From positions 1 through 32,460 of the forward strand of contig CACKTW010000005.1 of assembly GCA_902603215.1 (NCBI GenBank): 32,460 nt of DNA, in the 5' to 3' direction. Under the pieces are notes generated by a model. The model did no database searches. It was not told the origin of the DNA and worked only from the letters and a program-made list of their open reading frames with translations. Each line of letters begins with the position of its first letter. Within the stretch, counting starts at the first letter, position 1. Below, in pieces: positions 15,215 to 18,360 of the stretch. Made by a program: the position numbers and the translations under genes. This stretch comes from an uncultured Pelagibacteraceae bacterium (GTDB lineage: Bacteria; Pseudomonadota; Alphaproteobacteria; Pelagibacterales; Pelagibacteraceae).

Positions 15215-15888
15215 ATTTTTCCAAAATTCCTTTTAATTTTAATAAAATCTTTTAGAATTTTATTAAAATCTTTTTCTTTAAAATCGGGCCACAGTTTATC
15301 TAAAAAAAACATTTCAGTATATGATAATTGCCACAACAAAAAATTACTAAGTCTTTTTTGACCTCCTGTTCTAATAAGAATATCTGGATTTGGTTGAGTA
15401 GATGTATACAAATTTTTTTCAAAATTTCTCATGGTAAGATTGGTATTTTTTTTCAAGATTTTTTTAAAAGCATTTATTATTTCGTATCTAGATCCATAGT
15501 TTAGTGCCAGCTGTACCAAAATTTTTTTATTATTTTTTGTCTTTAACTCTGTGTCATTAATAATATTTTTAATCTTTCTAGGTAGCTTAGATTTATTACC
15601 AATAATTTTAATTTTTATTCCGTTATCAATGACTTTTTTTAGATTTTTAACAAAATATTCTCCAAGAAGATTAAATAAAAAATTAATTTCGTATTGAGGT
15701 CTTTTCCAATTTTCAGATGAAAATGTAAACAAGGTAAGTATTGGTATTTTTTTTTTTATAGATAAAGAAATTATTTTTTCTACAACTTTTAATCCTACTC
15801 TGTGACCAAAATTTCTTGATTTTTTCTTCTTAATTCCCCATCTTCCATTACCATCCATTATTATGGCAATATGATTTACCGGGTTCAT
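15211..15888 (-). CDS. uppS: Undecaprenyl diphosphate synthase
   Basis: HIAIIMDGNGRWGIKK, GHRVGLKVVEKII, LTLFTFSSENWKRP, LALNYGSRYEI, PDILIRTGGQKRLSNFLLWQLSYTEMFF. Confidence 0.97.
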   Translation of the reverse strand: MNPVNHIAIIMDGNGRWGIKKKKSRNFGHRVGLKVVEKIISLSIKKKIPILTLFTFSSENWKRPQYEINFLFNLLGEYFVKNLKKVIDNGIKIKIIGNKSKLPRKIKNIINDTELKTKNNKKILVQLALNYGSRYEIINAFKKILKKNTNLTMRNFEKNLYTSTQPNPDILIRTGGQKRLSNFLLWQLSYTEMFFLDKLWPDFKEKDFNKILKDFIKIKRNFGKI

Positions 15889-16436
15889 ACAGTCATAATC
15901 TCTTTTTCTTTTTGAATTACCTTTTCATCGATTTTTTTAATTTCGTCATCAGTCATTTTTTGAATATCTTTTTCATATTTTTTATTGTCATCTTCACTTA
16001 TTTCTTTTTTTTTAAGCAAAGACTTTAAGCTATCGTTTCCTTCTCTCCTGACATTTCTAATCGAAACTTTGGATTTTTCCCCAATAACTTTAATCATTTT
16101 TTTTAATTCATTCCTTCTTTCTTCGCTTAAGTCAGGAATGGGTATTCTTATTAGTTGACCATCAACCTGTGGATTTAGTCCTATTTCTGATTTTCTAATT
16201 GATGAATCTATAATTGCTACATTTGTTTGATCCCATACTTGAATATTTAAAACTCTAGGTTCTGGAGCTGTAATTGTTCCCAGTTGATTTATTGGCATTT
16301 TTTGTCCATAGACATCAACCTTAATTATATCAAGCATACTTGCATTAGCTCTTCCAGTTCTAAGAGCTGATAATTCTTTTAAAAAAACCTCGAAGGTTTT
16401 ATTCATTTTTTCTTGATAATTTTTTTTATCAAACAT
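15885..16436 (-). CDS. frr: Ribosome recycling factor
   Basis: LSALRTGRANASMLDIIKVDVYGQKMPINQLGTITAPEPR, IPIPDLSEERRNELKKMI, RNVRREGND. Confidence 0.97.
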   Translation of the reverse strand: MFDKKNYQEKMNKTFEVFLKELSALRTGRANASMLDIIKVDVYGQKMPINQLGTITAPEPRVLNIQVWDQTNVAIIDSSIRKSEIGLNPQVDGQLIRIPIPDLSEERRNELKKMIKVIGEKSKVSIRNVRREGNDSLKSLLKKKEISEDDNKKYEKDIQKMTDDEIKKIDEKVIQKEKEIMTV

Positions 16437-16462
16437 AATTTTAATTTTTTAATATGATAAAT

Positions 16463-17323
16463 TTATTCGCCAAGTTTATATCTTATAAAATCTTTTACAA
16501 CTATTTGCTTATTTGGAGATATTTCAGATATTACATTTTTTACCTTTTTTTTCGGATCCATTACCCAAACTTGATTAAGTAAAGTATTTTCTTGCTTAAA
16601 TTTTTCTATTCGTCCTACAGAAATTTTGTCTATAATTTTTTGATCTTTTCCAGAGTTTTTGAGCTCTTCATTAATAAGATTTTTTTCTTTTTCTAAAATT
16701 TTTGAATCTAAATTATCAACATCAATTGATAAAGGATTGGATGCTGCTACATGCATTGCTAGTTTGTGACCAAATTCTTTTACTTCATTATTATTTTCTG
16801 CATCTAAATTAATTATAACTCCCAGTTTTCCAATGTTAGGTTTGATTGGAGAATGAATATATGAAAAATTTATGCCACCAGTATTATCAAAAAACTTTGA
16901 TCTTCTAATAGTAATTTTTTCACCTATTTTAGAAATCAAAGAAATTAAATTTTCTTCGACTGGTTTTGAATTGGCCATGTTTGTTTTCTTTATTTTTTCT
17001 AAATTACCTTTTTCTTTAAAACAAATTAATGAAAGCTCTTCAGAAAAATTTATGAATTCTTTATTTTTAGCAACAAAATCTGTTTCACAATTAATTTCAA
17101 TAATGGATATTTGATTTTTTTCTTCTTTAATACAAATCAATCCATCGTTTGCAACTCGTTCCAGTTTTTTGCTAGCTTTTGAAATACCTTTTATTCTTAA
17201 ATATTCAATGGATTTTTCTATATCACCTTTATTTTCATTAATTGCATTACTGCAATCTTTAAAACCTGCGCCTGTTAATTCTCTTAATTTTTTGACTTTT
17301 TCTAGATTTGTCTCTCTAGGCAT
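16463..17323 (-). CDS. tsf: Translation elongation factor Ts
   Basis: VKKLRELTGAGFKDCSNAINENKGDIEKSIEYLRIKGISKA, NCETDFVAKN, HVAASNPL. Confidence 0.97.
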   Translation of the reverse strand: MPRETNLEKVKKLRELTGAGFKDCSNAINENKGDIEKSIEYLRIKGISKASKKLERVANDGLICIKEEKNQISIIEINCETDFVAKNKEFINFSEELSLICFKEKGNLEKIKKTNMANSKPVEENLISLISKIGEKITIRRSKFFDNTGGINFSYIHSPIKPNIGKLGVIINLDAENNNEVKEFGHKLAMHVAASNPLSIDVDNLDSKILEKEKNLINEELKNSGKDQKIIDKISVGRIEKFKQENTLLNQVWVMDPKKKVKNVISEISPNKQIVVKDFIRYKLGE

Positions 17324-17333
17324 AAAATATTTA

Positions 17334-18233
17334 TTATTTAGTCTTTTTTTTTGAACTGTCTTGCTTGATCTGTTTGAGTTGCTTGACTTGCTTGATCTGT
17401 TTGGTTTGTTTTGTTGGTTTTGTTTTTATTTCTTTTGTTGGTTTTATTTTTACTTCTTTTGTTGATTTTATTTTTACTTCTTTTGTTGATTTTATTTTTG
17501 TTTCAATTTTTGTTTTATCTTGATCTTTTCCATTAGTATTAACATTAATATTTTTTTGTGCATCTAAAATTGTTTTCTTTAAAAGTTCACAATATAATTC
17601 TATTGCTCTTCGAGCATCATCATTTCCTGGTATTGGATAATCTATATCGCTTGGATCAGAATTGGTATCTACAATTGCAACAATTGGTATTCTTAATTTT
17701 GAAGCCTCTTTAATTGCTAAAGTTTCATAATTTGTATCTATTACAAAGATAAGATTTGGAACACCTTTCATTTCTAAAATTCCGCCTAGAGATCTTTGAA
17801 GTTTATCCCTTTTTATACCCATTTTTAAAATTTCTTTTTTTGTAAAACCTCTATTTTCAGAACTTAAATTTTCTTCAATTTTTTTTAATTTTTTTATTGA
17901 ATTAGAAATAGTGCTAAAATTTGTTAACATTCCACCTAACCATCTATAATTAACATAGTACTGAGATGTTTCTTTTGCTAGTTTAGCAATTGCTTCTGAA
18001 GCCTGCTTTTTTGTAGAAACAAATAATACTTTTCCATTATTTTTGATAACGTCGCTTACTTTTTGTAATGCATTTTTTGTAAGTTCTACTGTTTGTATTA
18101 AATCAATTATATGAATTGAATCTTTTTTACCAAAAATATAAGGTTCCATTTTAGGATTCCATCTAAAGGTTCTGTGACCCAAATGTACTCCTGCTTCCAA
18201 TAATTCTTTGATTGATATCTCTGGTGTGCTCAT
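17334..18233 (-). CDS. rpsB: 30S ribosomal protein S2 with a repetitive Lys-rich C-terminal extension
   Basis: [84 protein letters not shown]; tail [44 protein letters not shown]. Confidence 0.97.
17404..17499 (-). repeat. Four imperfect 24-nt tandem repeats in the 3' end of rpsB (plus shorter 9-nt XKQ repeats at about 17355-17403)
   Basis: Units 17404-17427, 17428-17451, 17452-17475, 17476-17499; the last two are identical (ACTTCTTTTGTTGATTTTATTTTT on + strand), encoding KIKSTKEV-like octapeptides. Confidence 0.85.
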
Positions 18234-18240
18234 AATTTTT

Positions 18241-18320
18241 TCCGGTTATTCCACCACAGTCTTACCATTTAAGGACCGGCGGTCTTTCGACCAATAACTG
18301 TGTGCGTATTTAGGGTGGTT
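18241..18320 (-). ncRNA. Structured 5' leader of rpsB, candidate S2 autoregulatory element
   Basis: Locally GC-rich island. Minus-strand RNA contains GGUC-GAAA-GACC hairpin (18281-18292), CACAGU/ACUGUG (18297-18302 with 18255-18260), CCAC/GUGG (18315-18318 with 18251-18254), CCGGU/ACCGG (18275-18279 with 18242-18246, next to the SD), and alternative GUUAUU/AAUAAC (18293-18298 with 18245-18250). Confidence 0.75.
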
Positions 18321-18335
18321 TTTACATTTTAATTT

Positions 18336-18360
18336 AAAAAAAAACAACTTTTTTAAAGTT
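18336..18360 (-). terminator. Possible weak Rho-independent terminator at the dnaE 3' end
   Basis: Minus-strand AACTTT-AAA-AAAGTT hairpin followed by G and nine Ts, overlapping the dnaE stop codon. Stem is AT-rich, so weak. Confidence 0.4.

Follow-up and report, generated by a model that had tools for sequence, protein, structure and literature searches.

In the leaders of the S4 alpha operon and of the S15 gene rpsO, a protein-stabilised pseudoknot occupies the initiation region. For ribosomal protein S2, the corresponding operator in Escherichia coli is the rpsB-tsf leader, filed in Rfam as t44 (RF00127), through which excess S2 represses the translation of rpsB-tsf with the help of S1; the ribosome site has been reported to lie outside this operator (review PMC10931766). 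Closer to the DNA considered here, Meyer et al. (2009; PMC2704228) described an rpsB motif located between dnaE and rpsB in Pelagibacter HTCC1062. It consists of a stem P1, the helices P2 and P3, which are given as short specifically for Pelagibacter, and a pseudoknot in which the junction J2-3 pairs with the 3' extension.

Assignment of the locus to the rpsB leader motif

The window, by which we mean the whole stretch of 32,460 nucleotides that was analysed, is contig 5 of an 805-kb genome that is about 70% complete, and its S2 protein has its nearest named relatives in the Pelagibacteraceae (SAR11). The identities of dnaE (DNA polymerase III alpha) and rpsB (PF00318) are backed by Pfam, and the gap between them measures 119 bp (18234-18352), as given in an earlier note on this DNA. 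Read along the minus strand, the gap passes from promoter-like hexamers to a structured element (18306-18242) and then, after 8 nt, to the rpsB ATG (18233-18231; Table 1). Downstream of rpsB lie tsf, frr, uppS, cdsA, dxr and bamA. Within 15885-17323 (minus strand) frr comes immediately after tsf and pyrH is absent between them, and an frr homologue is found in the flank beyond rpsB at about 28 of 29 other rpsB loci of our first set, consistent with the same order. For pyrH, the window's own genome, at 70% completeness, yields one weak kinase match (G000:C1:58360-59079).

The element is almost certainly the known rpsB leader motif. It lies directly upstream of rpsB and ends at the start codon, its P1 is capped by a P2/P3 junction in which P3 amounts to only 2 bp, and CCGGU in J2-3 pairs with ACCGG in the 3' extension; P2 has 4 bp closed by a GAAA loop here, whereas the reported length in HTCC1062 is 3 bp. 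The Rfam model RF01815 ('rpsB') matches the leader from its first to its last position. The initial Rfam scan of the window reported no match because 31.9 bits falls below the RF01815 gathering cut-off of 40 bits, which is a curation threshold outside the published definition of the motif, and we assign the element to that published motif rather than as an Rfam-threshold match. RF01815 matches were found in 73 of 147 genomes of the order, with none reaching 40 bits. The cut-off leaves out the whole SAR11 order as sampled, where the motif was first described, and annotation pipelines that depend on it consequently miss the element. Our own model, R1, which was built from 40 SAR11 leaders, detects the element in 320 of 397 genomes from the order (135 of the 151 better ones) and, at class level, in 38 of 289 genomes. 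The t44 model scores 17.9 bits in the window, below its gathering value of 44, and the leader is hence not filed as t44. A permissive Rfam scan also returned MIR6224, CRISPR-DR54 and DUF3800-XI, at E values of about 1 to 5, which we set aside as chance. The earlier note had suspected that the class might already be known, and this proved correct: it has been known since 2009, from the same gap, and the window holds a further copy of the described motif.

Table 1. Features of the rpsB leader and neighbouring sequence in the window.
Feature	Positions	Strand	Basis
rpsB (ribosomal protein S2)	17334-18233	-	PF00318, E 9e-89; ORF
rpsB leader element	18228-18306	-	whole-model RF01815 match, 31.9 bits, E 4.9e-5
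rpsB leader element by own model R1	18231-18306	-	85 bits, E 6e-22, with the window copy in the R1 training set
P1 5' arm CACAGUU	18296-18302	-	covariation
P1 3' arm GACUGUG	18255-18261	-	covariation
P2 hairpin GGUC-GAAA-GACC	18281-18292	-	partial covariation, two-sided changes in 2 of 4 pairs
Pseudoknot 5' arm CCGGU (junction J2-3)	18275-18279	-	invariant in SAR11; covaries across Proteobacteria
P3, short CC/GG helix	18265-18274	-	weak: 2 pairs, two-sided changes in 1
Pseudoknot 3' arm ACCGG, 8 nt upstream of rpsB start codon	18242-18246	-	
Conserved CGCA preceding P1	18303-18306	-	near-invariant in 40 leaders
Conserved GGUGG/GGAGG following P1, first G paired in P1	18251-18255	-	
Promoter-like -35 TTGTTT	18342-18347	-	pattern in 51 of 71 leaders versus 1.8 in shuffles (post hoc pattern)
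Promoter-like -10 TGTAAA	18321-18326	-	same counts as -35

Conservation of the leader and its upstream sequence

Three complementarities picked out in the earlier note, the GNRA-capped hairpin GGUC-GAAA-GACC, CACAGU with ACUGUG (18302-18297 with 18260-18255) and CCGGU with ACCGG at the ribosome-binding region, are all present on the minus strand, and the stems covary across related genomes, strongly in P1 and partially in P2. Among 40 aligned SAR11 leaders, two-sided changes that preserve pairing occur in six of the seven P1 pairs; the structure as a whole has 60 cells with two-sided changes (shuffles, 18.1) and a paired fraction of 91% of cells, which falls to 28-52% once the partner is slid. 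The folding energy by itself would be compatible with chance complementarity within a GC-rich stretch, as the minimum free energy of the leader gives z = -0.19 and 80 of 200 shuffles fold equally well. That explanation is, however, already refuted by the covariation, and conservation throughout the lineage also speaks against it, such that we accord it practically no weight. When the element is dinucleotide-shuffled, the 6-bp stem, 4-bp hairpin and 5-bp pseudoknot turn up together in 7 of 3000 sequences, a combination that chance seldom produces, and the comparative data are strong evidence. Judged from these alignments, the leader structure is real.

Other parts of the original proposal fared less well. 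A competing GUUAUU/AAUAAC pairing reaches at least five of its six pairs in 11 of 74 leaders, versus 16.8 expected from shuffled partners, and only 5 of 74 leaders have CCAC, the proposed partner of GUGG, at 25 nt or less from P1; with both pairings unconserved, the suggestion of mutually exclusive structures is unsupported. The position of CCAC in the window is that of the predicted transcript start. We likewise rejected the lower extension of P1 in the RF01815 drawing, CGC with GUG, whose middle pair breaks in relatives (G-A and U-C), and the bases concerned are therefore better viewed as conserved sequence. The CGCA before P1 is a possible protein contact, and the motif after P1 is present as GGAGG in E. 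coli t44.

Inside SAR11 the CCGGU/ACCGG pseudoknot shows no variation, and its covariation was consequently tested outside the group, with support coming from relatives only. A perfect pseudoknot partner is present in 68 of 77 leaders from Alpha- and Gammaproteobacteria, including the window's own copy, against 8.4 expected from shuffled loops, in what is a biased sample since leaders were located with patterns and models favouring the known core. Six five-base forms of the 3' arm occur among these 77 leaders. The ACCGG, ACCCC, ACCAG, ACCCA and ACCGA arms nearly always have the matching partner; for ACCCG, a perfect partner is present in 3 of 11 gammaproteobacterial leaders and absent from 8, which perhaps use a wobble pair, a type of pair left unscored in the count. 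The variation outside SAR11 thus supports the pseudoknot that had been placed beside the start codon of the S2 gene.

Upstream of the element, 51 of 71 SAR11 leaders have a TTGW-N16 to N20-TRTAWA pair, in most cases 10-23 nt ahead of P1. Dinucleotide shuffles give 1.8 and random stretches taken from these loci 0.8, a contrast that is optimistic because the pattern was written after inspection of the sequences. From these hexamers, a transcript start is predicted near 18312-18315, just upstream of P1.

Spacing at the ribosome-binding region

The distance from the last base of the pseudoknot to the start codon has a median of 8 nt in 74 SAR11 leaders, versus 16 nt in 23 other Alphaproteobacteria, for some of which the choice of start codon is uncertain (e.g., L074, L082 and L173) and single values may shift, and it is 24 nt in E. 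coli. AGGA, GGAG or GAGG occurs between the arm and the start codon in 3 of the 74 SAR11 leaders as opposed to 19 of the 23 others. When the 16S tail is assumed to be the common CACCUCCUUU, its best pairing with the SAR11 leader overlaps the pseudoknot arm, marginally so for the few leaders that have an AGGA of their own. The 5-bp, GC-rich pseudoknot helix has a computed energy of -6.6 kcal/mol, versus -3.5 for Shine-Dalgarno pairing. Sequestration of a Shine-Dalgarno sequence, as the earlier note proposed, agrees with the SAR11 geometry, but there is scarcely any Shine-Dalgarno sequence to sequester, only GGA or GGGA overlapping the pseudoknot arm. Across the window, AGGA, GGAG or GAGG stands upstream of only 4 of 25 genes, and the genome seems little reliant on Shine-Dalgarno sequences.

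In a sister family of the order (L120-L138), the P1/P2 layout of the rpsB leader differs (CACAGCGAUAGC...GCUGUGGAUG), while CCGGUCC and ACCGGAG are retained. The arm there continues into GGAG (CCGGAG), with the GGAG overlapping the pseudoknot arm.

Candidate mechanism and comparison with known leaders

We propose that the rpsB leader would be transcribed from its own predicted promoter just downstream of dnaE. The leader folds into P1 capped by the P2/P3 junction, with CCGGU of the junction pairing with ACCGG downstream of P1. By analogy with E. coli, free S2 would most likely bind P1 and the junction and stabilise the pseudoknot, the arm of which spans positions 9 to 13 upstream of the SAR11 start codon; 30S loading would then be blocked and rpsB turned down, and downstream tsf with it. 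Given the short gap and the missing separate Shine-Dalgarno sequence in SAR11, direct occlusion is the most likely mechanism, and we regard the entire chain, including S2 binding and a pseudoknot that directly occludes the ribosome site, as reasonably probable.

The ribosome site of E. coli, reported outside the operator (PMC10931766), raises the possibility that S2 acts otherwise than by occlusion. The same leader might be used by S2, with S1, as in E. coli, the pseudoknot leaving the ribosome site uncovered and the short SAR11 spacing reflecting only genome compaction and Shine-Dalgarno loss, and such loss is indeed general in the window. One would nevertheless expect a clash between a bound 30S subunit and a 5-bp GC-rich helix at -9 to -13, and the arm is present in 74 of 74 SAR11 leaders, albeit leaders picked by a pattern that contained it; on balance we think this account unlikely. 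More improbable still is a ligand-free reading, in which a standing RNA fold tunes the translation of rpsB or the stability of its mRNA with no protein bound. Conservation by itself is no proof of a ligand, but CGCA and GGUGG are retained as sequence, and the core is common to E. coli t44, where S2 represses in vivo (PMC10931766).

More tentatively, we suggest that the rpsB leader may have come to work differently in the SAR11 lineage, which would have lost the spacer carrying a separate Shine-Dalgarno sequence, such that the pseudoknot's 3' arm itself took over ribosome binding and a remote operator turned into a direct on/off switch. As a group of cells, SAR11 ranks among the ocean's most abundant, and to our knowledge few of its regulators have been described. 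An S2 feedback switch, if true, would be one of the few known SAR11 controls over ribosome production, and the compact geometry of these leaders would simplify tests of how S2 repression works.

Set against described systems, the element represents the proteobacterial rpsB leader as it occurs in SAR11, and E. coli t44 is the gammaproteobacterial counterpart. It shares with the RF01815 motif its place in the dnaE-rpsB gap, the P1 stem, the shortness of P2 and P3, and the pseudoknot. With t44 it has in common the core CACAC...GUGGAGG..UAAC, and t44 offers a pseudoknot-compatible GGGGU/ACCCC at the equivalent place; unlike the window, t44 has a separate GAGG within its arm-to-start gap. This is no new kind of system, and the less ordinary detail is the lineage-specific geometry. 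In its mode of action the SAR11 leader would be akin to the S4 alpha operon and S15 rpsO leaders, to which it is unrelated in sequence, structure and ligand.
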